NCBI GenBank assembly: GCA_902609915.1
Contig: CACLTO010000005.1
Span: forward strand, 1 to 45,387
DNA: 45,387 bases
DNA from: an uncultured Pelagibacteraceae bacterium
GTDB taxonomy: Bacteria; Pseudomonadota; Alphaproteobacteria; Pelagibacterales; Pelagibacteraceae
Direction: 5' to 3'
The first letter of the stretch is position 1; every line of letters begins with the position of its first letter. The notes beneath the pieces are model-generated. The model did no database searches, was not told where the DNA came from, and saw only the letters and a list, made by a program, of their open reading frames with translations. Position numbers and translations under genes: made by a program. Shown in pieces: positions 1,456-13,719 of the stretch.

Positions 1456-2814
1456 TTAACCTTTTATTACTTCCCTTGTATTTGCATTGTAAGACTCCTT
1501 AAATGGTATATCAACAATAACTGCATCAACAGGTGTACCTGGATTTTCTGAATACTGAGCAGGCAAATGAATTTTAAATTTAGATCCCGTCTTATTTTTT
1601 GGAAATCCGTTTGCATTTAAATTTCCATCAAAAGGCACATATCCCATGGCTATATTTTTTTTCTTTTCAGGATGATACCAAGGAGACGTAATAAAACCTA
1701 CTGGCTCTCCACCATCGACGTTTGAAACAAGCCAAAAATCTGGTGCATAATCTTCAATGGGCTTTCCACCTAACTCAAATCCGACAAGTTGTAATTTGTA
1801 TGGTTTCTTTCCTGCTTTAATATCCTCTTTCATTTTTTCTAAAACTGCTTTACCAACATAATCTGATTTTTTATTCCACTCTCCTTTTCCAGATAAAGAA
1901 ACTTGATAACCTAAGTTACATTGAAAAGGGTTATGTTGCTGATCCATATCTTGACCCCAAGAAAGAATTCCAGCTTGAATTCTTCTATGATGAGCAGGCG
2001 CGATAACCATTAGATTGTGTTTTTTTCCAGCTTCAAGAACTGCATTCCACATATCATCCGCATATAATGTTGCGTTTCTTAAATAAATTTCATATCCAGC
2101 CTCTCCAGAAAAACCTGATTGAGAAATTACACAACTTCTCCCTCCAATTTTTGCTTCTGCTAAACCGTAAAAAGGCATGTTATCTAAATCAAATTGGTCC
2201 CCACAAAGATCGTTAATTAAAGCTTTGGATTTTGGTCCTTGAATTTGAACTGGACAATGATCTGTCTCTTCAATCTTGCAATCAAATTTACCATCAGCAT
2301 TCACACCTTGCAAATACATACCAATATCAGAGTCAGACAGAGAAAACCAAAACTCATCTTTTGAAATTCTAAGTAAAATTGGATCATTTAATACACCACC
2401 ATATGCATTACATAAAATTACATACCTAGCTCTCATAGGTGAAATTTTAGTTGCATCTCTTGTAATAACATAATCTACAAATTTTTCTGCATCAGGTCCT
2501 TTTACTCTTATTTGTCTTTCAACAGCAACATTCCACATAGTTACATGATTTACAATTGCATCATACTCAACCATTGCTCCACCATCCTCTGGTTTAACGT
2601 ATCCTCTTGGATGATAAATACGATTATATACTGTCGCTCTCCAACACCCTGCTTTCATAGATAAATGCCAATAAGGGGATTTTCTTACTCTTGTTGAAAT
2701 TAACATTTCAACTTTTGTAGGCCCGCTTTGTCTTAAATTATAGGGAACTTCTCGATCTGACTGATCAACTGAAGTAAAATGTTTTAATTTACTATAGTCA
2801 AATTCATTAGACAT
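1456..2814 (-). CDS. DmdA-like GcvT-family tetrahydrofolate methyltransferase
   Basis: 452 aa of the GcvT/aminomethyltransferase fold. The middle (VWNVAVERQ-type segment, NDPILLRISKDEFWFSLSDSD, VQIQGPKS, SGFSGEAGYEIY) follows DmdA, the DMSP demethylase, more closely than GcvT proper. It is about 85 residues longer than the roughly 365-aa SAR11 DmdA, with extra N-terminal and C-terminal sequence, so it is probably a paralogous clade rather than DmdA. Family members pass a methyl or methylene group to tetrahydrofolate in the cytoplasm. Its start overlaps the upstream MetF-like gene by eight bases, implying joint methyl transfer and oxidation. The substrate (DMSP, a sulfonium or a methylamine) is not decidable here. 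Confidence 0.75.
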   Translation of the reverse strand: MSNEFDYSKLKHFTSVDQSDREVPYNLRQSGPTKVEMLISTRVRKSPYWHLSMKAGCWRATVYNRIYHPRGYVKPEDGGAMVEYDAIVNHVTMWNVAVERQIRVKGPDAEKFVDYVITRDATKISPMRARYVILCNAYGGVLNDPILLRISKDEFWFSLSDSDIGMYLQGVNADGKFDCKIEETDHCPVQIQGPKSKALINDLCGDQFDLDNMPFYGLAEAKIGGRSCVISQSGFSGEAGYEIYLRNATLYADDMWNAVLEAGKKHNLMVIAPAHHRRIQAGILSWGQDMDQQHNPFQCNLGYQVSLSGKGEWNKKSDYVGKAVLEKMKEDIKAGKKPYKLQLVGFELGGKPIEDYAPDFWLVSNVDGGEPVGFITSPWYHPEKKKNIAMGYVPFDGNLNANGFPKNKTGSKFKIHLPAQYSENPGTPVDAVIVDIPFKESYNANTREVIKG

Positions 2815-3535
2815 AACTATTCTCCTTCAACCACTTGTTAGTTTCCTTCAAGCCGCCGAATGTATAAATGTGGAAGAAATCAGTATGCGATTTAACTTTC
2901 CCAATTAGATCATTAGGGTCTTTAGGTTTCAATAAATCTAACGCCTTACTAAAATTAGACCTAAGAAAGTTTAGGGAATTTTTTGCTCCAACAATATTAG
3001 CAAATTTAATTAAGCTTGATATTTTTAGAGGTCCAGTAATTCCAACATGTACTGGTACGCTTTGTTTAGAAATAAAATCTATGATAGGCTGTGGATCAAG
3101 CAACCATTGAGTTACTATATAATCAGCGTAAGGCTTTTTGTTTTTCATAGCTTTTTCTAAATCAGAATCCGATATATCAGGACTACCCTCTGGGTGTCCA
3201 GCAATTCCTATTGTCATTTTATCGAAATAACCCGTCTCCAGAAGTTGAAAAGAACTATCAAATTTTCCCACAGGCTCTCTTCCACCACCAATTATTAAAA
3301 CTTGTTTTACTCCCCCATCTTTACATCTAGAGATATAATCTTTAAGCTCCTTTTCGTTATGCATGGATCTAGCTGGGAAATGTGGAACAGGATTAAATCC
3401 TCTTTTCACGAGCTCAACTGCTTGGTGTGCTGTCTCTTTGTAGTCCCCACCCGGTAACATAGTTATATAAATATCATTTACATAAGGCACTGTATCAAGA
3501 TCTGTAGTTGGGCTAATTTCGAGAGAAAAATTCAT
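2807..3535 (-). CDS. Short methylenetetrahydrofolate reductase-like protein (MetF family)
   Basis: 242 aa, about 50 shorter than E. coli MetF. It keeps the TIM-barrel landmarks: an N-terminal FSLEISP strand with the family glutamate, PHFPARSM, a GGG after a V-L-I-I strand, GIAGHPEGSPD, and D-Y-I-V-T-Q followed by a late V-G-I-T-G-P strand. In the DmdA-like partner's pathway it would oxidise 5-methyl-THF to methylene-THF, or act in reverse, using flavin. It is first in a two-gene minus-strand operon, divergent from the CysC-like gene with 105 bases between the starts, where the promoters must lie. Confidence 0.78.
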   Translation of the reverse strand: MNFSLEISPTTDLDTVPYVNDIYITMLPGGDYKETAHQAVELVKRGFNPVPHFPARSMHNEKELKDYISRCKDGGVKQVLIIGGGREPVGKFDSSFQLLETGYFDKMTIGIAGHPEGSPDISDSDLEKAMKNKKPYADYIVTQWLLDPQPIIDFISKQSVPVHVGITGPLKISSLIKFANIVGAKNSLNFLRSNFSKALDLLKPKDPNDLIGKVKSHTDFFHIYTFGGLKETNKWLKENSYV

Positions 3536-3640
3536 TTTTCAGATCATTATCTTTTTTAAAAAAGCTGTCAAAGAATTTTATTAAATGACACTATGAAAAT
3601 TGTTGCTTAAAATTGAGCAGGTTGTTAATTATTTGAGATA

Positions 3641-4045
3641 ATGAAGATTATATTAATTATGGGTTTACCAGGTTCTGGTAAAACGACTTTAGCCTCTGAG
3701 TTAGTGCCTTTACTTAAAGCAAAGTGGCTAAATGCTGATGATGTCAGAAAAGAAGCTAATGATTGGGATTTTTCAGCTGAGGGAAGAACCAGACAGGCAA
3801 AACGAATGTGGACAAAAGCACAGGAATATAAAAGTCAAGGTAATCACGTTGTTGCTGATTTTATTTGCCCAACTCCTGCAGCTAGAGCACTATTCCCAGC
3901 AGATTTTATTATATGGGTAGATACTATAAAAGAGGGCAGATTTGACGATACTAATAAGATGTTTGTAAAACCAGACAAGTATAACTTTCATGTTACCACT
4001 CAAGATGCTAAAAATTGGGCACCAAAAATATTTAAGGAAATATAG
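3641..4045 (+). CDS. CysC-like P-loop kinase (adenylylsulfate kinase family)
   Basis: 134 aa with an N-terminal P-loop GLPGSGKT (residues 8-15) and the CysC-like D-D-V-R box (33-36), then ADFICPTPAAR, matching the V-A-F-I-S-P-x-R-A region of APS kinases, and a V-D-T strand. CysC is about 200 aa, so this is a compact relative. CysC phosphorylates adenylylsulfate, but SAR11 bacteria are known to lack assimilatory sulfate reduction, and here the partner two bases downstream is a nucleotidyltransferase. The substrate may therefore be a different phosphate- or nucleotide-activated compound. Kinase assignment is firm; substrate is unknown. Confidence 0.75.
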   Translation: MKIILIMGLPGSGKTTLASELVPLLKAKWLNADDVRKEANDWDFSAEGRTRQAKRMWTKAQEYKSQGNHVVADFICPTPAARALFPADFIIWVDTIKEGRFDDTNKMFVKPDKYNFHVTTQDAKNWAPKIFKEI

Positions 4046-4047
4046 AG

Positions 4048-4422
4048 ATGTCTTATAAATGGGACAATAAAAAACCAACTGCTCAAATGTTAGGAAGATG
4101 GCAACCATTTCATGATGGGCACTATACATTATTTAAAGAGATAATAAAAAAAACTGGACAAGTTTGTATACAGATCAGAGATGTTCAAGGCATTGATGAT
4201 AATCCGTTTGATTTTAATACAGTAAAAAAAAATATTGAGGATAAATTAAAACCAGAATTTGAAGGACGTTTTAAAATAATGTTGGTTCCCAACATAACAA
4301 ATATTTCTTATGGAAGAGGTGTAGGATATAAAATAGAAGAAGTTATTTTACCTGAAGAAATACAAAAGATTTCAGCTACGAAAATAAGAGCTAAAATGAG
4401 AGAAGAAGGTAAATTAAAATAA
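4048..4422 (+). CDS. HxGH nucleotidyltransferase-like protein
   Basis: 124 aa of the cytidylyl/adenylyltransferase superfamily. G-R-W-Q-P-F-H-D-G-H (16-25) holds the HxGH nucleotide-binding motif, and ISATKIR (108-114) is the ISxTxxR motif near the C-terminus; both are needed for nucleotidyl transfer. It is the minimal size for the fold. It starts two bases after the CysC-like kinase, so the two probably serve one activation pathway. CTP:glycerol-phosphate cytidylyltransferase, PPAT and ATP-sulfurylase-like roles are all possible; sequence does not choose among them. Confidence 0.7.
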   Translation: MSYKWDNKKPTAQMLGRWQPFHDGHYTLFKEIIKKTGQVCIQIRDVQGIDDNPFDFNTVKKNIEDKLKPEFEGRFKIMLVPNITNISYGRGVGYKIEEVILPEEIQKISATKIRAKMREEGKLK

Positions 4423-4428
4423 TTTCTG

Positions 4429-5202
4429 ATGAATATTAAGATCATAAATCATAATAAAGATATTGTAAGAGTTATAATCAATGAGCCTAAAACTTATAAT
4501 TCTTTATCCTATAAAAATTTAAAGGACTTAATAATTACTTTTAAAAAATTAGATAAAGATAAAAAAGTTAAAGTAATAATTCTTGAAGGTGCTGGAAAAG
4601 GATTTAGTGCAGGTCATAACTTAAAAGAAGTTAAAAATTTAAAAAAAAAAGACAAATATAATAAATTATTCAACCTTTGCTCAAAATTAATGCTTCAAAT
4701 AGTAGAGGGTAGAAAACCCGTAATCGCAAAGGTTCACGGGGCAGCATTCGCTGCAGGCTGTCAATTGGTTGCTAGTTGTGATTTAGCTTATAGTACTAAA
4801 GATGCTATTTTTGCAACACCAGGAGTAAATATAGGATTATTTTGCAGCACACCTATGGTAGCTGTAAGCAGAAAAATTAGTAAAAAACATATGATGAAAA
4901 TGCTTTTAACAGGTGAACCAGTCAAAGCAAATTACGCAAAGGAAATTGGTTTAATCAATGATTGTTTTTCTAAGTCAAGAATGAATAATGAAATTTTAAA
5001 GATTGCAAAAAAAATTGCATCAAAATCCAATTTAACAATTAAAATAGGCAAGCAAGCTTTTTATAAACAATTAGAAATGCCATTAAAAAAAGCATACTCT
5101 TACACAAGTAAAGTGATGACAACAAATATGATGGCGATGGATGCTAAAGAAGGTATTTCAGCTTTTCTTGAAAAAAGAAAACCTATTTGGAAAAATAAAT
5201 AA
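4429..5202 (+). CDS. Enoyl-CoA hydratase/isomerase family protein, ECHDC3-like, catalytic Glu residues absent
   Basis: 257 aa crotonase fold. FSAGHNL (59-65) and the HGAAFAAGCQLVASCD segment (103-118) form the CoA and oxyanion-hole region, and ATPGVNIGLFCSTP (129-142) and KRKPIW near the C-terminus match the ECHDC3 subfamily. The two hydratase glutamates are replaced: position C-Q-L (Gln112, usually C-E-L) and P-G-V (Gly132, usually P-E). A standard hydratase or DmdD (methylthioacryloyl-CoA hydratase) role is therefore doubtful despite the sulfur-related neighbours. Thioesterase, isomerase or another acyl-CoA reaction remains possible. It lies six bases after the nucleotidyltransferase. Confidence 0.82.
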   Translation: MNIKIINHNKDIVRVIINEPKTYNSLSYKNLKDLIITFKKLDKDKKVKVIILEGAGKGFSAGHNLKEVKNLKKKDKYNKLFNLCSKLMLQIVEGRKPVIAKVHGAAFAAGCQLVASCDLAYSTKDAIFATPGVNIGLFCSTPMVAVSRKISKKHMMKMLLTGEPVKANYAKEIGLINDCFSKSRMNNEILKIAKKIASKSNLTIKIGKQAFYKQLEMPLKKAYSYTSKVMTTNMMAMDAKEGISAFLEKRKPIWKNK

Positions 5203-5208
5203 ATTTTA

Positions 5209-6582
5209 ATGAGTGATATAAAAAAAATTAATGAAACTTGTTGTGGCCCTGGATATGCTAGTCCATCCGATGCTATTAAAGCACCAAATGAAAAACTTCT
5301 TTACACAATAGCTATTTACACTGGTACTGGAATTCAAAAACCAGATTATCTAGCTACTATTGATGTTGATCCAGCAAGTCCTAATTATTCACAAGTTATT
5401 CATCGTCTGGAGATGCCAGGAATTGGAGATGAGTTACATCATATGGGATGGAACGCATGTTCTTCATGCCATGGAGACTCTGGAATGAGTAGAAAATATT
5501 TATTAGTACCAGGTGTCAGATCAAATAATATTTACGTAATCGATACCGCAACTAACCCACTGGCTCCAAAAATCCACAAAGTGATTAAAGGTTCAGAAAT
5601 AAAATCTAAAACAAACTTATCAGGCCCTCATACAGTGCACTGTTTAGGCTCCGAAATTATTATTTCTTTTCTTGGTAACTCAAAAGGGGAAGCTCCAGGA
5701 GGGTATTTACACTTAAACAAAGATTTTGAAATTGTAGGAAGGTGGGAAAATTCAATGGGAGATATTCCTTTTAGTTACGATTTTTGGTACCAACCACGTC
5801 ACAATGTTATGGTGAGTTCAGAGTGGGCCGCTCCCAACACCTTTATGCCAGGTTTCGATCTTGAAGAAGTAGGGCACCTAAAATATGGAAGAAGACTTCA
5901 TATTTGGGATTTTAAAAAAAAAGAACCAATCGAGACGATCTATCTCGGAGAGGATGGTTTAATACCCTTGGAAGTAAAATTTAAACATGATCCTAATAGT
6001 ACTCATGGATTTTGTGGTGCAGCACTTAGTTCAAACGTTATTCATTTTTGGAAATCTAAAGATGGAAAATGGGAATGGGAAAAAATTATAGATATTGACA
6101 ACGAACCTCACCCGGATTGGCCTATTCCAATTCCTGGAGTTATGTCTGCAATACTTGTTTCAATGGATGATAAATATCTTTATTTAAACAATTGGCTTCA
6201 TGGAGATATGAGACAGTATGATATTACTGATCCTCACAAACCTAAGTTAACAGGTCAAGTATGGATTGGAGGACTTTTAGGAAAAGCACCATTTATAAAT
6301 GGAGTTAAGATTGCAGGTGGTCCTCAAATGTACCAACTATCTTTAGATGGAGCAAGGATGTATGTAACCACTTCATTATTTTCAACTTGGGACAATCAAT
6401 TTTACCCTGATATAAAAACGCTAGGTGGTGCTATGATTATGATTGACTGTGATGTAAAAAATGGGGGAATGAAAATTAATAAAAATTTTATTGTTAACTT
6501 TGGCGAAGAACCCAATGGACCAAGTAGATGTCATGAAAGTAGATACCCTGGTGGAGACTGCACAAGTGATATATGGCTGTAA
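5209..6582 (+). CDS. mtoX: Selenium-binding protein / methanethiol oxidase family (SELENBP1-MtoX)
   Basis: 457 aa aligning over its full length with the SBP56 family: CCGPGYASP at the N-terminus, HHMGWNACSSCHGD (77-90) with the selenium/metal-binding cysteine region, DFWYQPRHNVM, SNWLHGD-like NNWLHGD, AGGPQM, and the terminal RYPGGDC...SDIW. Known members oxidise methanethiol to formaldehyde, sulfide and hydrogen peroxide in a copper-dependent way. There is no signal peptide, unlike the periplasmic Hyphomicrobium enzyme, so it is probably cytoplasmic. Its end overlaps the ferredoxin start by ten bases. Methanethiol is the product of the DMSP demethylation route, which fits a DmdA-like gene nearby. 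Confidence 0.85.
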   Translation: MSDIKKINETCCGPGYASPSDAIKAPNEKLLYTIAIYTGTGIQKPDYLATIDVDPASPNYSQVIHRLEMPGIGDELHHMGWNACSSCHGDSGMSRKYLLVPGVRSNNIYVIDTATNPLAPKIHKVIKGSEIKSKTNLSGPHTVHCLGSEIIISFLGNSKGEAPGGYLHLNKDFEIVGRWENSMGDIPFSYDFWYQPRHNVMVSSEWAAPNTFMPGFDLEEVGHLKYGRRLHIWDFKKKEPIETIYLGEDGLIPLEVKFKHDPNSTHGFCGAALSSNVIHFWKSKDGKWEWEKIIDIDNEPHPDWPIPIPGVMSAILVSMDDKYLYLNNWLHGDMRQYDITDPHKPKLTGQVWIGGLLGKAPFINGVKIAGGPQMYQLSLDGARMYVTTSLFSTWDNQFYPDIKTLGGAMIMIDCDVKNGGMKINKNFIVNFGEEPNGPSRCHESRYPGGDCTSDIWL

Positions 6583-6947
6583 AAAAAATCACTATTATCA
6601 ATCGTGAAAACAAAATCTTTAAGGTTTCTGACAGAAAACCTTTACTTCAAGAATTACGTACTCAAGGGTTAGATCTCCCTTATGGTTGTGAATATGGAGG
6701 TTGTATAACTTGTGCTGCAAAACTTATTACAGGAGAAGTAGATCAACGTTCTCAAGTTGCTCTAAATAATCGACAAATTAACAATGGTTATGTTGTCTTG
6801 TGTGTTGCCAAACCAAAAACAGATTGTGAAATTGAAATTGGTGTTGAAAGTCATGATAAACTTTATCGTAATCCTTTCCTTGACCCACTTGCACCACATG
6901 AGCTAAAAGCTGATATAGCAACTCTAAAAGAAGTAAAAAAAAAGTAG
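6573..6947 (+). CDS. 2Fe-2S ferredoxin
   Basis: 124 aa with a plant/adrenodoxin-superfamily [2Fe-2S] motif: Cys39, Cys44, Cys47 and Cys77 (C-x4-C-x2-C-x29-C). The roughly 40-residue tail after the fold (HELKADIATLKEV) is unassigned. It overlaps the methanethiol-oxidase-family gene by ten bases, so both are translated together and the ferredoxin may carry electrons for that enzyme or for an oxygenase. Family MtoX enzymes are not known to need a ferredoxin, so the pairing is worth noting. Confidence 0.9.
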   Translation: MAVKKITIINRENKIFKVSDRKPLLQELRTQGLDLPYGCEYGGCITCAAKLITGEVDQRSQVALNNRQINNGYVVLCVAKPKTDCEIEIGVESHDKLYRNPFLDPLAPHELKADIATLKEVKKK

Positions 6948-6951
6948 ATAA

Positions 6952-7401
6952 ATGGATCATAGTAAACCTTATAGCGATGAGTATTTAAGAGATATTTTAA
7001 ATTCTGTTAAGACTATAGCAATGGTAGGAGCTAGTCCTGATAAAACTAAATTTAGTTATGGAGTCTTAAGAGTACTTCATGAAACTGGATACGATATGAT
7101 ACCAGTTAATCCAAAATCTGAAATTAAGGAAATACGTAATTTGAAAGTATACCCTAATCTTGCATCAATCGATCGTCCTGTTGATATGGTTGAAGTTTTC
7201 AGAAAACCAGAAGATCTTTATGGTGTAGCCGAGGAAGCAATTTCAATTGGTGCTAAGGTGTTATGGGGACAAATTGGGGTGATTAATCATGAGGCTGCTC
7301 GTTTAGCAGAAGCAGCAGGACTTAAAGTTGTAATGGATAGATGTCCAAAGATTGAGCTTTTCCGACCATTTTGGAAACCACGTCTTGATCAAAAAATTTG
7401 A
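6952..7401 (+). CDS. CoA-binding domain protein (YccU-like)
   Basis: 149 aa Rossmann protein of the CoA_binding_2 type: V-G-A-S-P-D-K near residue 26, then S-Y-G-V-L-R-V-L, P-V-N-P and the VLWGQIGVINHEAA segment with the DRCPKIE end. Family proteins bind CoA; their biochemical role is not known. It starts five bases after the ferredoxin stop and so joins the methyl/sulfur operon. Confidence 0.85.
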   Translation: MDHSKPYSDEYLRDILNSVKTIAMVGASPDKTKFSYGVLRVLHETGYDMIPVNPKSEIKEIRNLKVYPNLASIDRPVDMVEVFRKPEDLYGVAEEAISIGAKVLWGQIGVINHEAARLAEAAGLKVVMDRCPKIELFRPFWKPRLDQKI

Positions 7402-7943: not shown

Positions 7944-10376
7944 ATGAAAACTAAAACTAAAGTAGTAATAGTCGGTGGTGGAGTTGTTGGAGTAAGTGCC
8001 CTTTATCATTTAGCTAAGAAAGGGTGGTCTGATGTTGTTTTAGTTGAGAGAAAAGAACTAACATCTGGTTCAACTTGGCACGCTGCAGGGTTATTACCAC
8101 TCTTTAATATGAGCTATTCAGTTGGTCAACTTCATAAATATGCTGTGAGTCTTTACAAAAAATTAGAAGAAGAGACAGGAAAAAATGTGGGTTTTAGCGT
8201 TGTTTCAAATATTCGTTTAGCAAGCACTAAAGATAGAATGGATGAATACCATCAATATGCTGGGGTAGCAAAAACGATAGGGGTTGACGTAAAATTTTTA
8301 ACGCCACAACAAGTAAAAGAAATTTGGCCCCTATGTCATACTGATGATTTAGTTGGTGCTATTCAACATCCAGAAGATGGATATATTCAACCTGCTGACT
8401 TAACACAAGCATTAGCAACTGGAGCAAGAAACAAGGGAGCTGAAATTTATAGAAACACTGCTGTTCTATCAATGAAACAAACTAAAGATGGATGGATTGT
8501 TGAAACAGACAAAGGCTCAATTGAATGCGAACATGTTATTTCATGTTCAGGTAACTTTGCAAGACAAACTGGTGAAATGGTTGGATTAGATATTCCAGTT
8601 ATACCTGTAGAACATCAATACATTGTTACAGAACCACATCCTGAAATACAAAAAAGAAAAAAAGAAGGTCTTCCAGAGATGGGAGTCTTAAGAGATAGTG
8701 ATAGCAGATGGTATATGAGAGAAGAAGCTGGCGGATTAATATTAGGTCCATATGAAGATGGTGCACCCGCTTGTTATCTTGAGGGACCATCAAAAAATTC
8801 TGAGTATGAATTATTTCAAGAAGATTTAGATAGACTTGCACCTCATATTGAGGGCGCAATACATAGAGTGCCTGCTTTTGGTGAGGTAGGAGTTAAAAAG
8901 GTTTATAATGGAGCAATTTGTTATACTCCTGATGGAAACCCAATAGTTGGGCCTGCATGGGGTTTAAAAAATTTTTGGATAAATGAGGGACATAGTTTTG
9001 GTATAACTGCTGCTGGTGGCGCAGGATGGCAGCTAGCAGAATGGATAGTAGATGGAGAACCAACGATTGACATGCTTGGGGTTGAACCAAGACGTTATGG
9101 AAATTATGCAACTAAATCTTATCTAAAAGTAAAAAATGAAGAAGCTTACAGTCATGTCTTTATAACTCATTATCCAGATGAGGAAAGACCTGCAGCAAGA
9201 CCTCTAAAAACATCACCATGTTATGAAAGAATGAAAAATTTAGGAGCAGTATTTGGACAAAAATTTGGTTGGGAAAGACCAAACTTTTTTGCAACTGATG
9301 GCATGGAGCAGAAAGACGACTGGTCTTTTAGAAGATCCAAATGGTTCGATGCGATTAAAAAAGAGTGTAAAAATGTAAGAGAAAATGTTGGTCTTTTAGA
9401 TATGACTGCTTTTGCAAAGTGTAGAATAAAAGGTCCAAAAGCAGAAGAATTTTTAGATTATTTAGTTGCAAACAAGCTTCCAAAAAAAATTGGTAGAATA
9501 AATTTGTGTCATGCTCTTAACACTAAAGGAGGAGTCCATTCGGAATTTACTATCATGAAGGAAGCTGAAAATAGATATTATCTTGTTTCAGCAGGTGCAA
9601 ACTTAAGATTAGACCACGACTGGATACAAAAATGGATGCCCAATGACGGCTCAGTAATATTTGAGGATTTAACAAACAGTAAAGGTGTTCTTGTTGTAGC
9701 AGGTCCAAAGGCACGAGAATTAATGAAAAAAGTTTCTACAGATGATTTTTCAGGTGAAAATTTTAAGTGGTTAACTGCAAAAAACATCAATGTTGGGTAT
9801 GCACCTGTTAACGCTATGAGAGTAAACTTTGTTGGTGAATTAGGTTGGGAATTGCATCATCCAATTGAATATCAAAACCACATATTTGATAAATTAATGG
9901 AAGCGGGAAAAGATTTGGGAATAAAACCATTTGGAATAAGAGCAATGAACAGTTTAAGGCTTGAAAAATCCTATAAATTAGTAGGCACAGAATTATCTAT
10001 TGAATATTCTCCCTACGAATCAGGTTTGGATAGATTTATTCATCCTAACAAAGGTAATTTCATAGGGCTTGAGGCATTAAATAAATGGAGAGAAAAAGGA
10101 TTTGATAATAAATTAGTCACTTTAGAAGTCCATAACACAACTGACTCAGATGTTTTGGGAAACAACCCTATCTATAAAGACGATAAAGTTGTAGGAAGAG
10201 CTACAAGTGGTGAATATGGATTTAGGTTAGATAAATCAATAGCATTAGCAATGGTAAAACCTGATCTTGCTAATGTTGGTGAAAAACTTAAGGTTGATAT
10301 ATTAGGAAAAATGTATGAGGCTACAATTTTAGAAGAAGGCCCATACGATGCTGAAAATAAATTATTGAGAGCTTAA
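7944..10376 (+). CDS. dmgdh: Dimethylglycine/sarcosine dehydrogenase, FAD + THF (GcvT) domains
   Basis: 810 aa, close to DMGDH/SarDH length. The N-terminal FAD oxidoreductase half has the Rossmann IVGGGVVG (9-16) and GSTWHAAG (42-49), where the histidine is the covalent FAD site in this family. The C-terminal half (from about residue 440) is a GcvT-type folate domain (SGEYGFRLD near the end) that captures formaldehyde as methylene-THF. It oxidatively demethylates dimethylglycine and/or sarcosine, the steps after betaine demethylation. The stop shares an A with the etfB start (TAATG), directly linking it to its electron acceptor. Dimethylglycine versus sarcosine specificity is not decidable. 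Confidence 0.88.
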
Positions 10377-11125
10377 TGAAAATTTTAGTCGCAGTAAAAA
10401 GAGTTATTGATTATAACGTTCAAATTAGAGTTAAGGAGGATAAGACAGGGGTAGTTACAGATAATGTTAAAATGTCTACCAACCCTCCTGATGATAATGC
10501 TATTGAAGAAGCAGTAAAAATTAAAGAGGCTGGAAAAGCAACAGAGGTTATAGCAGTAAGTGTTGGCGAAGAAAAAGCTCAAGAAACAGTTCGCAAAGCT
10601 TTAGCAGTTGGTGCAGACAAAGGTATCCTTGTAAAAACTGATGGAATTGTAGAACCTTTAGCAGTTTCGAAATTATTACAAAAAATTGTTGAAAAAGAAA
10701 AACCAGATTTGGTTTTCATGGGCAAACAAGCAATTGATGATGATTGCAATCAAACTGGTCAAATGTTAAGCGCATTACTTAATTGGCCACAAGCTACTTT
10801 TGCATCTAAGATTGAAATAAAAGATAAAAAATTAGAAGTAACAAGAGAAATTGATGAAGGACTAGAAACAATTGAAATTAGTATCCCAGCAATAGTTACA
10901 TGCGATTTAAGATTAAATGAACCAAGATATGCCTCCTTACCAAATATTATGAAAGCAAAGAAAAAACCAATTGAACAAATAAATGCGTCAGATTTGGGAG
11001 TAGATACTTCACCAAGAATCGAGCATATTAAAGTTGAAGAGCCACCAAAAAGAAAAGCTGGAATAAAAGTTTCTAGTGTAGCTGAATTGGTTCAAAAATT
11101 AAAAAATGAGGCAAAAGTTATTTAA
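10376..11125 (+). CDS. etfB: Electron transfer flavoprotein beta subunit
   Basis: 249 aa with the EtfB features VKRVIDYN at the start, a [11 protein letters not shown] loop, the [24 protein letters not shown]-contact segment and the [19 protein letters not shown] recognition loop near residue 190, through which ETF docks to dehydrogenases. It partners EtfA as soluble electron carrier from the adjacent dehydrogenase to the quinone oxidoreductase. It shares one base with genes on both sides (TAATG). Confidence 0.96.
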
Positions 11126-12078
11126 TGTCAGTTTTATTAATAGCAGAGCATAACAACCAAGATTTAAAACCATTTACTCTTAATGCAGTTACAGCAGCTG
11201 CGCAAATGGGAGAGGATCTACATTCAATAATAATTGGTCAAAAATGTGGAGAGGCTGCAAAAAAATTATCAGAATTACCATTAGTCAAAAAAGTTATTCA
11301 AGTAGAAGCAGCTCATTATGAAAATTTTGTTGCAGAAAATTTTGCTCCTGTAATAATTAAATTAGCAGAGAACTATTCACATATTGTTTGTTCAGCAAAC
11401 ACTTTTGGTAAAAACTTAATGCCAAGAATTGCTGCTTGTTTAGATACGTCTCAAGTTAGTGATATTATTAAAGTAATATCTCCAGATACGTTTCTAAGAC
11501 CTATATATGCTGGAAATGCATTTGCGACCGTTAAAAGTAAAGATACAAAAAAATGTGTAACTATAAGACCCACCTCTTTTGATCCCTGCGAAAGTTCTGG
11601 TGGATCGGCATCTATAGAAAAAATTGAACCAGGTGAAGAATTTAATAACACAAAATTTGTCAAAAGAGAGGAAATTAAGTCCGACAGACCAGAATTAGGA
11701 ACTGCTAGAGTAGTAGTATCTGGAGGAAGAGGTATGCAAAGCGGAGATAATTTTAAGTTAATTACGTCGTTAGCTGACAAATTGAATGCAGCTATTGGCG
11801 CTTCAAGAGCAGCAGTTGATGCTGGTTACATTGGCAACGACCACCAAGTAGGTCAAACAGGAAAAGTTGTAGTACCAGATTTATATATAGCTGTAGGAAT
11901 ATCAGGAGCTATTCAACATTTGGCTGGAATGAAGGAAAGCAAGGTAATTGTCGCAATCAATAAAGATGGTGAAGCACCAATATTTAGTGTGGCTGATTAT
12001 GGATTAGAGGCTGACCTTTTTGAGGCAGTTCCACAATTCTTAGATGAATTGAACAAATTAAACACTATACAAAAATAA
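11125..12078 (+). CDS. etfA: Electron transfer flavoprotein alpha subunit
   Basis: 317 aa. The C-terminal FAD domain shows VSGGRGMQSGDNFKL (around residue 198), GASRAAVDAGY and VGQTGKVVVPDLYIAVG, the hallmarks of EtfA, and ISGAIQHLAGM. It binds the ETF FAD and forms the dimer with EtfB. Coupled to etfB by TAATG and followed after 21 bases by the ETF-quinone oxidoreductase gene. Confidence 0.96.
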   Translation: MSVLLIAEHNNQDLKPFTLNAVTAAAQMGEDLHSIIIGQKCGEAAKKLSELPLVKKVIQVEAAHYENFVAENFAPVIIKLAENYSHIVCSANTFGKNLMPRIAACLDTSQVSDIIKVISPDTFLRPIYAGNAFATVKSKDTKKCVTIRPTSFDPCESSGGSASIEKIEPGEEFNNTKFVKREEIKSDRPELGTARVVVSGGRGMQSGDNFKLITSLADKLNAAIGASRAAVDAGYIGNDHQVGQTGKVVVPDLYIAVGISGAIQHLAGMKESKVIVAINKDGEAPIFSVADYGLEADLFEAVPQFLDELNKLNTIQK

Positions 12079-12099
12079 TTTAATCTGTAAGAAATTGGT

Positions 12100-13719
12100 A
12101 TGTCCAGAGAGTCAATGGAATATGATGTAGTTATAGTTGGTGGTGGTCCATCAGGTTTGTCTACTGCAATTAAATTAAAACAATTAAATGCTAATCTAAA
12201 TATTTGTATTTTAGAGAAAGCATCTGAAATTGGAGCTCATATTTTAAGTGGTAATGTTTTTGAAACAAAAGCACTTGATGAATTAATTCCTAACTGGAAA
12301 GATTTAGATACGCCTATTAAAACTAAAGTTTCAAAAGAAAAATTTTTATTTTTAGGAAAGTCAAAATCCTTAAGTTGGCCGACATGGTTACTTCCATCAG
12401 TTCAAAAAAATCATAATAATTATATTATTAGTCTTGCAAATTTATGTAGATGGCTTGCAGAACAAGCTGAGAGTCTTGGGGTTGAAATTTTCCCAGGATT
12501 TCCCGCAAGTGAAATTTTATATAATGATGACGGCTCTGTTAAAGGAGTAGCTACCCAAGATATGGGTATTGATAAACAAGGTAATAAAAAAGATAGTTTT
12601 GAGCCAGGTATTGAGCTTAAAGGTAAAGTCACAGTTTTTGCTGAGGGGTGTAGAGGCCATTTAGGTAAACAATTGATCCAAAAATTTAATCTTAATGAAG
12701 GAAAAGATCCTCAACAATATGGTATTGGCTTTAAGGAAATTTGGGAAATTGATGAGAAAAATCATGAGGAAGGATTAGTGATGCATACTGCTGGCTGGCC
12801 CTTAGATAATAATACATACGGTGGAAGCTTTATTTACCATGCTGAGAATAAACAATTATTTTTAGGTTATGTAATTGGTTTAGACTATCAAAATCCACAT
12901 CTATCCCCTTTTGATGAGTTTCAAAGATTCAAAACACATCCATCAATTAAAAAAATTATTGAGGGTGGAAAAAGAATCTCTTACGGTGCAAGAGCATTAA
13001 TTGAAGGTGGTATACAAAGTTTACCTAAAATGTATATGCCAGGTGCATTACTTATAGGTTGTGATGCTGGAACTCTTAACATGCCAAAAATAAAAGGCTC
13101 TCATACAGCAATGAAAAGTGGAATAATAGCTGCTGAAGTAATTAACGAGCATATTGAAGAAAAAAAGGATTTATCAATTTATGAAGAGAGGTTTAAAAAA
13201 AGTTGGTTATTTAAAGAATTGCATGAAGCAAGAAACGTGAAGCCAAGTTTTAGTTGGGGTTTAATACTGGGTATAATTTTCACTGGAATTGACCAAATTT
13301 TATTTAGAGGCAAGCTTCCATTTACTTTAAAACATAAGCACGCTGATCATGAGACTTTGAAACCAGCTAATGAAATGCCAAAAATTAATTACCCAAAACC
13401 TGATAACATTATTACATTTGATAAAACGACATCTGTTTATTTGACTGGTACTAATCATGAAGATAATCAGCCAGTGCATCTTCAGCTTAAAGACCAAGAT
13501 TTACCAATAAAATATACTCTTGAAAAATATGATGAACCTGCACAAAGGTATTGTCCAGCAGGAGTTTATGAAGTTCAAAAAGAAAGTAATGTAAATAAAT
13601 TTGTTATAAATGCACAAAATTGTATTCATTGTAAAACTTGCGATATCAAAGAACCCTCACAAAATATAGTTTGGGTTACCCCTGAAGGTGGCGGAGGTCC
13701 AAAATATGGGAATATGTGA
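12100..13719 (+). CDS. etfD: Electron transfer flavoprotein-ubiquinone oxidoreductase
   Basis: 539 aa. The N-terminal FAD Rossmann motif VIVGGGPSGL starts near residue 11. The C-terminal [4Fe-4S] domain has Cys485, Cys508, Cys511 and Cys514 followed by the family ending WVTPEGGGGPKY. It moves electrons from ETF to ubiquinone at the inner membrane. The chosen ATG at 12100 gives MSRESMEYDV; ATG 12115 would leave only three residues before the FAD strand and is a possible alternative. It completes a dehydrogenase-ETF-quinone chain in one operon. Confidence 0.95.
   Translation: MSRESMEYDVVIVGGGPSGLSTAIKLKQLNANLNICILEKASEIGAHILSGNVFETKALDELIPNWKDLDTPIKTKVSKEKFLFLGKSKSLSWPTWLLPSVQKNHNNYIISLANLCRWLAEQAESLGVEIFPGFPASEILYNDDGSVKGVATQDMGIDKQGNKKDSFEPGIELKGKVTVFAEGCRGHLGKQLIQKFNLNEGKDPQQYGIGFKEIWEIDEKNHEEGLVMHTAGWPLDNNTYGGSFIYHAENKQLFLGYVIGLDYQNPHLSPFDEFQRFKTHPSIKKIIEGGKRISYGARALIEGGIQSLPKMYMPGALLIGCDAGTLNMPKIKGSHTAMKSGIIAAEVINEHIEEKKDLSIYEERFKKSWLFKELHEARNVKPSFSWGLILGIIFTGIDQILFRGKLPFTLKHKHADHETLKPANEMPKINYPKPDNIITFDKTTSVYLTGTNHEDNQPVHLQLKDQDLPIKYTLEKYDEPAQRYCPAGVYEVQKESNVNKFVINAQNCIHCKTCDIKEPSQNIVWVTPEGGGGPKYGNM

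Follow-up and report, generated by a model that had tools for sequence, protein, structure and literature searches.

What does a relative of DmdA, the protein that moves a methyl group from dimethylsulfoniopropionate (DMSP) to tetrahydrofolate (THF), do at a SAR11 locus where it is paired with a MetF-like gene and stands back to back with genes for a kinase, a nucleotidyltransferase, a crotonase and a methanethiol-oxidase-family protein? We analysed a stretch of 45,387 nucleotides (the window) from an uncultured Pelagibacteraceae bacterium (GenBank assembly GCA_902609915.1, contig CACLTO010000005.1, positions 1 to 45,387), whose genome comprises 829,395 bases in 37 contigs and is about 70% complete. 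A first-pass annotation had suggested that the genes at 1456-6947 together form a sulfonium or thiol demethylation route. We use "DML" as a working name for the GcvT-fold protein of 452 amino acids (aa) encoded at 1456-2814 on the minus strand, which is of the SAR11_1265 type, and propose from its gene context that it is probably a THF-dependent glycine betaine demethylase. The conserved unit is the DML-MetF pair (1456-3535, minus strand), and the cluster is this pair at the edge of a variable island, not one pathway.

Family, fold and phylogeny of DML

DML is a member of PF01571 (Table 1). Against the NCBIfam DmdA model NF009133 it scores 226.3 bits, below the cut-off of 410, and against TIGR00528, the model for GcvT proper, 135.0 bits (cut-off 235.85). 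A genuine DmdA is encoded elsewhere in the window's genome (G000, contig C17; 543.5 bits), and a separate DmdA above the cut-off was present in seven of eight genomes checked, G049 being the exception. In the tree, whose outgroup branches are long, a separate branch (96/95) unites 28 of the 29 DML proteins, and 14 SAR11 DmdA-like rows (13 distinct, two identical) fall on another (100/100); eight of these 14 were scanned, five lying above the DmdA cut-off and three below. The position of the distant L072 protein, about 50% identical to that of the window, was left unplaced. Placement outside the DmdA branch, named beforehand as the outcome that speaks against the first-pass annotation, is therefore what the tree gave; score, branch and the separate DmdA in the genome together rule out DmdA identity.

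An alignment-based AlphaFold2 model of DML (pLDDT 80.1, pTM 0.85) has the GcvT fold. Its nearest structure is DmdA of P. ubique (PDB 3tfh; Z 37.8, 28% identity); GcvT structures match the model equally well or almost so, and Z values to the structures of GcvT, DmdA and dimethylglycine dehydrogenase (DMGDH)/sarcosine oxidase range from 32 to 38. DML was correctly described as longer than plain DmdA: it exceeds the 369-aa chain of 3tfh by 83 aa (85 in the annotation). DmdA (PDB 3tfh/3tfi/3tfj) shares with it the fold, an N-D-P motif (N143, D144 and P145 in DML) and the proposed transfer of a methyl from an onium compound to THF. Unlike DmdA, DML has conserved N-terminal (VDQSDRxVPxNLRQSGPTP) and C-terminal extensions, its own branch and betaine-type neighbours, and the two are 26-28% identical in structural alignment. 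GcvT and the T domains of DMGDH and sarcosine oxidase have the same fold and folate domain family as DML; these enzymes yield methylene-THF, not methyl-THF. At the place of the motif GcvT has D-D, with an aspartate, which we take to be catalytic, where DML has its asparagine. The presence of the DmdA-type motif without the GcvT aspartate agrees with an onium compound as methyl donor and a transfer without redox change.

The length of DML and its MetF partner first brought to mind an O-demethylase of the LigM/DesA type. These are GcvT-fold THF methyltransferases of similar length that follow the same logic, with MetF presumably their partner in Sphingobium SYK-6. They act on aromatic ethers, whereas betaines are proposed for DML, and the candidate was rejected on scores far below their models (39.2 against a cut-off of 580, and 40.9 against 800). 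The MetF-like partner itself belongs to PF02219 (Table 1) and stays below the NCBIfam MetF models (25.4 against 293.7 and 33.8 against 310.05). Rows from outside SAR11 in our alignment A2 are 62-72% identical to the window DML across phyla (exceptions: L057, 82%, and L072, 50%), which suggests one substrate for DML.

Distribution, neighbours and co-occurrence

Within SAR11, DML is close to a core gene. We compared the window's genome with 80 relatives, and 70 of these 81 have an ortholog of 74-100% identity, fragments included (a raw search count of 79 includes distant paralogs at 40% identity or less); MetF lies beside DML in all 15 SAR11 stretches with an ortholog. Among 385 alphaproteobacterial genomes, 19 carry DML (E<=1e-80), three of them from the window's genus. 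A scan of GTDB species gave at least 596 stretches with the pattern, 584 of which encode DML relatives among the matches listed; the 80 loci kept (70-87% identical to row 1 of alignment A1) come from Alpha- and Gammaproteobacteria, Actinobacteria, Gemmatimonadetes, Acidobacteria and others. Sixteen plasmid records with DML, 50-57% identical to the window protein, are all haloarchaeal. The carriers thus include SAR11, HIMB59, SAR86, Halomonas, Marinobacter, Actinobacteria, Gemmatimonadota, Acidobacteria and haloarchaea. One SAR86A locus (L184) holds a second DML-like stretch at 6662, 71% identical to the window protein and about 3 kb from the first.

The 96 DML loci outside SAR11, among which we counted L173 (titled Pelagibacteraceae, with a HIMB59-type-looking locus), reduce to 52 non-redundant clusters at 90% identity. 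Searching for neighbours by tblastn with reference proteins (E<=1e-15) revealed DMGDH-like genes in 30 clusters, DMGDH or sarcosine oxidase (Sox) in 31, MetF in 19 and Fhs in 12, together with a GbdR/AraC-type regulator (8), SoxA and SoxB (6 each), PurU (5), BCCT (4), ETF (3), BetA and ChoX (2 each) and a gamma-butyrobetaine-hydroxylase-like gene (1). Twenty arbitrary control stretches of 20 kb from ten DML-bearing genomes, which are alphaproteobacterial whereas the DML loci span phyla, held no DMGDH or MetF, two Sox genes (both in G200) and one each of Fhs, BetA-like, crotonase-like and ETFQO genes. The sulfonium or thiol substrate suggested at first is not supported.

Locus L084 encodes, beside DML, ChoX (469 bits, cut-off 379), BetA (786, cut-off 732), SoxB (709, cut-off 529) and a DMGDH-like protein. 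Choline uptake, its oxidation (BetB lay outside the scan) and the last two demethylations are thereby covered, leaving the step from betaine to dimethylglycine as the gap. BetA in L082 is above its cut-off, the BCCT neighbours were confirmed at subfamily level, and the regulator has the GbdR model as its best match but falls below the cut-off (326.7 against 480). PurU, GlyA and FolD are above cut-off in an Arthrobacter locus (L169), as is Fhs in a Halomonas locus (L155). Of the 16 haloarchaeal plasmid loci we examined six. Each has MetF within four annotated genes of DML; Fhs, FolD, GlyA, BCCT and DMGDH-like genes also occur among the six, and five have FAD-dependent oxidoreductase genes, the one scanned being of the DMGDH type (DAO+GCV_T).

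Co-occurrence was assessed in the 385 alphaproteobacterial genomes, with p-values that ignore kinship. DMGDH-like genes (E<=1e-150) occur in 130 of them, comprising 19/19 genomes with DML versus 111/366 without (Fisher p 4e-10). MttB (PF06253) is present in 82 genomes, 81 of which have DMGDH; among DMGDH genomes it accompanies 3/19 with DML (one a short fragment) versus 78/111 without (p 1e-5). The GbcA model NF058607 finds matches in 218 genomes, mostly weak Rieske proteins and none above the cut-off, and a loose GbcA-like class (at least 289 bits; 41 genomes, all below the curated 670) is seen in 1/19 DMGDH genomes with DML versus 34/111 without. DML, MttB and the GbcA-like class are distributed like alternatives that feed the same subsequent step.

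Proposed reaction and competing readings

We propose that DML would bind betaine where DmdA binds DMSP and would move one methyl group directly from the quaternary nitrogen onto N5 of THF. The products would be dimethylglycine and 5-methyl-THF, and neither cobalamin nor oxygen nor homocysteine would take part. MetF would convert 5-methyl-THF to methylene-THF, and FolD, Fhs or PurU could take the carbon on to formate. Dimethylglycine may then become sarcosine through DMGDH, ETF and ETF-ubiquinone oxidoreductase (ETFQO), for which the candidate genes at 7944-13719 start 4-5 kb from the pair, and sarcosine may become glycine through SoxBDAG. The fold, the separate family, the conserved pairing, the neighbourhoods and the co-occurrence were observed; substrate, binding site, reaction and the direction in which MetF works are inferences. 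We retain the proposal of the first-pass annotation that a methyl passes to THF and on to a MetF-like enzyme.

The net reaction proposed here is also that of the MttB-type glycine betaine demethylase MtgBCD, whose metF2 also takes methyl-THF; going by the accessible part of that source (Mausz et al. 2025, PMC12478193), it belongs to an unrelated family and requires cobalamin, and DML looks like a B12-free alternative. The Rieske monooxygenase GbcAB performs the same substrate step but is O2-dependent, with formaldehyde, and BHMT performs it but with homocysteine as the acceptor. We lean towards the view that DML is a widespread, B12-free, O2-free, single-protein entry to betaine breakdown, near core in SAR11, and that in the ocean much of the methyl carbon of betaine may reach folate by this enzyme rather than through BHMT or MtgBCD. 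Glycine betaine is an important marine osmolyte. If the proposal is true, SAR11 would have a B12-free oxidation of betaine methyl groups, betaine use would be decoupled from methionine synthesis, and metagenomics would gain a marker gene. It would also re-assign a near-core SAR11 gene, guessed to be a demethylase of methylmercaptopropionate (MMPA) in 2011 and otherwise annotated as aminomethyltransferase, and add a further possible entry enzyme for betaine catabolism from within the known GcvT-fold THF demethylases.

Published work bears on this in several places. P. ubique HTCC1062 oxidises the methyl groups of glycine betaine, and the literature already lists the pair under SAR11_1265/1264 and speculates that SAR11_1265 acts on MMPA (Sun et al. 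2011, PMC3160333, in the portion available). Published assignments, as far as the available portions go, give the first betaine step in this strain to a BHMT (SAR11_1173) and DMGDH to SAR11_1253. The accessible text of Mausz et al. 2025 (PMC12478193) states that the mechanism of the first betaine demethylation had remained elusive and that the SAR11 BHMT is not experimentally validated. Within the open PMC library, which excludes subscription papers and preprints, we found no paper that gives glycine betaine demethylation to DML. In the part of Smith et al. (2016) at hand, bhmT mRNA is up 34-fold in sulfur-limited exponential cells (their Table 1), for which metF and SAR11_1265 mRNA have no listed change; in stationary phase the latter two fall jointly (0.20/0.12 and 0.10/0.10), and their proteins stand at 1.38/1.46 and 1.29/1.30 in sulfur-limited samples. 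At the mRNA level, metF and SAR11_1265 change in concert with each other and differently from bhmT. Such a pattern fits BHMT serving methionine supply and DML serving C1 energy, but is not proof of it.

Several observations weigh against a glycine betaine demethylase. DML, MttB and GbcA-like proteins are all absent from 24 of the 130 DMGDH genomes, and all three occur together in G381. Our reading does not predict that, when P. ubique grows exponentially under sulfur limitation, the proteins of metF and SAR11_1265 rise slightly (1.38 and 1.29). BHMT-like proteins, so called from length and context (PF02574, about 350 aa), occur in G012, G047, G049 and G050, so that in some SAR11 relatives the glycine betaine step is already assigned. 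PF02574 had no match in the window's incomplete genome, and the near-complete G287 and G377 each have a single match of about 300 aa, which we read as probably MmuM-type rather than BHMT. No core marker accompanies DML in 14 of the 52 clusters, including Arthrobacter L150/L151 and several SAR86 loci; some of these loci are short, and in G264 DMGDH lies 9 kb away, just beyond the stretch. A TauD/gamma-butyrobetaine-hydroxylase-like gene near DML in L129, L131, L133 and L138, all from metagenome-assembled genomes of Gemmatimonadetes/Gemmatimonadota, hints at other betaines; the protein scanned, from L131, is below curated cut-offs. Finally, DMGDH-like enzymes form a broad family, and the substrates of these neighbours are putative.

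The last two points bear on the view that DML demethylates one or more other trimethylammonium compounds (choline, carnitine, gamma-butyrobetaine, proline betaine or hercynine), the DMGDH-like neighbours taking the matching tertiary amines. The neighbours do fall into several divergent groups, and EgtB and EgtD accompany the pair in one SAR11 relative. However, the genes for choline dehydrogenase, choline-binding protein, GbdR-like regulator and sarcosine oxidase point to glycine betaine, and the identity of DML across phyla suggests a single substrate; we consider this view unlikely. Much less probable still is removal of the S-methyl of MMPA during DMSP breakdown, as speculated in print (PMC3160333, in the portion available), even with DmdA as nearest kin and fold: DML accompanies betaine-type genes outside SAR11 (dmdBCD were not among the genes searched), occurs in Actinobacteria, Gemmatimonadota and haloarchaea, and in general chemistry a thioether is a poor methyl donor compared with an onium.

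We give almost no credence to a single route through all genes at 1456-6947, where substrate activation would fall to the kinase and nucleotidyltransferase and product processing to the crotonase and SBP56 protein. The genes are tightly spaced in the window, and many genomes of the genus keep the kinase, nucleotidyltransferase and crotonase genes in this region. However, a search of the 96 loci outside SAR11 (tblastn, E<=1e-15) detected neither these three nor SBP56, and SBP56 is present in 7 of the 81 genomes, the window's included. The kinase occurs in 56 of the 81. Where it shares a contig with DML in the window's genus (29 genomes, including the window's), the gap between them, MetF included, is below 1 kb in seven, with room for MetF only, 2-5 kb in 12 and 9.5-11.6 kb in ten, so that it reaches 2-12 kb in 22, of which MetF makes up only 0.7 kb. 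In the sister family, none of 20 genomes with the kinase has it, by our reading, within 15 kb of DML (G065 lacks a DML ortholog). Kinase and nucleotidyltransferase are themselves split by two large genes in L096 and L105. The gap variation and the loci outside SAR11 make these two unlikely as substrate activators. Neighbours that vary among relatives, the second outcome named beforehand as speaking against the first-pass annotation, are thus what was observed, and its uniting route is not supported. Because inserts, gaps and SBP56 presence differ among relatives, we describe the locus as a conserved pair beside a variable island, and kinase, nucleotidyltransferase, crotonase and SBP56 look like unrelated neighbours of the pair.

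Window genes and the variable island

All genes named in the first-pass annotation are present in two runs with gaps or overlaps of a few bases: DML and MetF on the minus strand, with an 8-base overlap, and five genes on the plus strand, with a 10-base overlap. Seven genes lie inside 1456-6947, and its count of eight is reached only with the CoA-binding gene beyond it (Table 1). Fe-S assembly genes lie upstream of the cluster, and a DUF4864-like protein (below cut-off) is encoded between the CoA-binding protein and the DMGDH-like gene.

Table 1 Positions and assignments of the window genes discussed in the text
Feature	Position	Strand	Details
DML, GcvT/DmdA-fold, proposed glycine betaine:THF methyltransferase	1456-2814	-	452 aa; PF01571 (GCV_T) 140.6 bits, cut-off 25.6
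Short MetF-like methyl-THF oxidase/reductase	2807-3535	-	242 aa; PF02219 29.2 bits, cut-off 24; PDB 7xg9 E 4.7e-31
P-loop kinase, judged not part	3641-4045	+	134 aa; AAA_33 and APS_kinase above cut-off
HxGH nucleotidyltransferase, judged not part	4048-4422	+	124 aa; CTP_transf_like 19.9, slightly below cut-off 21.0
Enoyl-CoA hydratase (crotonase), judged not part	4429-5202	+	NF006008 353.4 bits, cut-off 313
SBP56 protein, judged not part	5209-6582	+	SBP56 domain 672.9 bits
2Fe-2S ferredoxin, judged not part	6573-6947	+	Fer2; 10-base overlap with SBP56 gene
CoA-binding protein, judged not part	6952-7401	+	End of SBP56-ferredoxin-CoA-binding cassette (5209-7401)
DMGDH-like flavoprotein, proposed next step	7944-10376	+	DAO + FAO_M + GCV_T
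ETF beta	10376-11125	+	PF01012 153.5 bits
ETF alpha	11125-12078	+	PF01012 and PF00766
ETFQO, proposed electron exit of DMGDH step	12100-13719	+	PF05187 163.0 bits

The methanethiol-oxidase-family assignment stands as far as the SBP56 domain goes. Like the exact name DmdA, the name MtoX fails because the model score lies below its cut-off (NF052453, 158.8 against 650). The protein has a CSSC motif at residue 84. SBP56, ferredoxin and CoA-binding genes move as one in L089, L090, L106 and L107.

Inserts in the island vary. Between MetF and the kinase, L089 (genome G039, a SAR11 relative that also has the SBP56 cassette) carries at 5944-8120 genes for EgtB (489 bits, cut-off 360) and EgtD (346, cut-off 291) of ergothioneine synthesis. 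At 8765-9940 the same locus encodes a Rieske oxygenase whose best match is the GbcA model (116.5 bits, cut-off 670) and which is absent from the window; proteins of the same cluster (c9, of which the L089 copy was scanned) lie near the kinase in L091, L092, L095, L100, L101, L102, L107 and L108. In the relative G047 the MetF-kinase interval encodes OpuAC, a PF02574 methyltransferase, a DMGDH-like protein and a Rieske-cluster protein; the first three count in favour of glycine betaine as the substrate. The two large genes between kinase and nucleotidyltransferase are seen at 9370-13945 in L096, 6755-11288 in L105 and about 4598-9148 in L102; the one scanned has an Autotransporter domain.

One phage family, phrog_10255, covers the kinase with one half and the nucleotidyltransferase with the other. 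The split pair of the window (3641-4422) matches a fused phage protein, encoded by a single 'kinase' open reading frame that spans both (Clavibacter phage 33; OR548257.1, 15228-15965).

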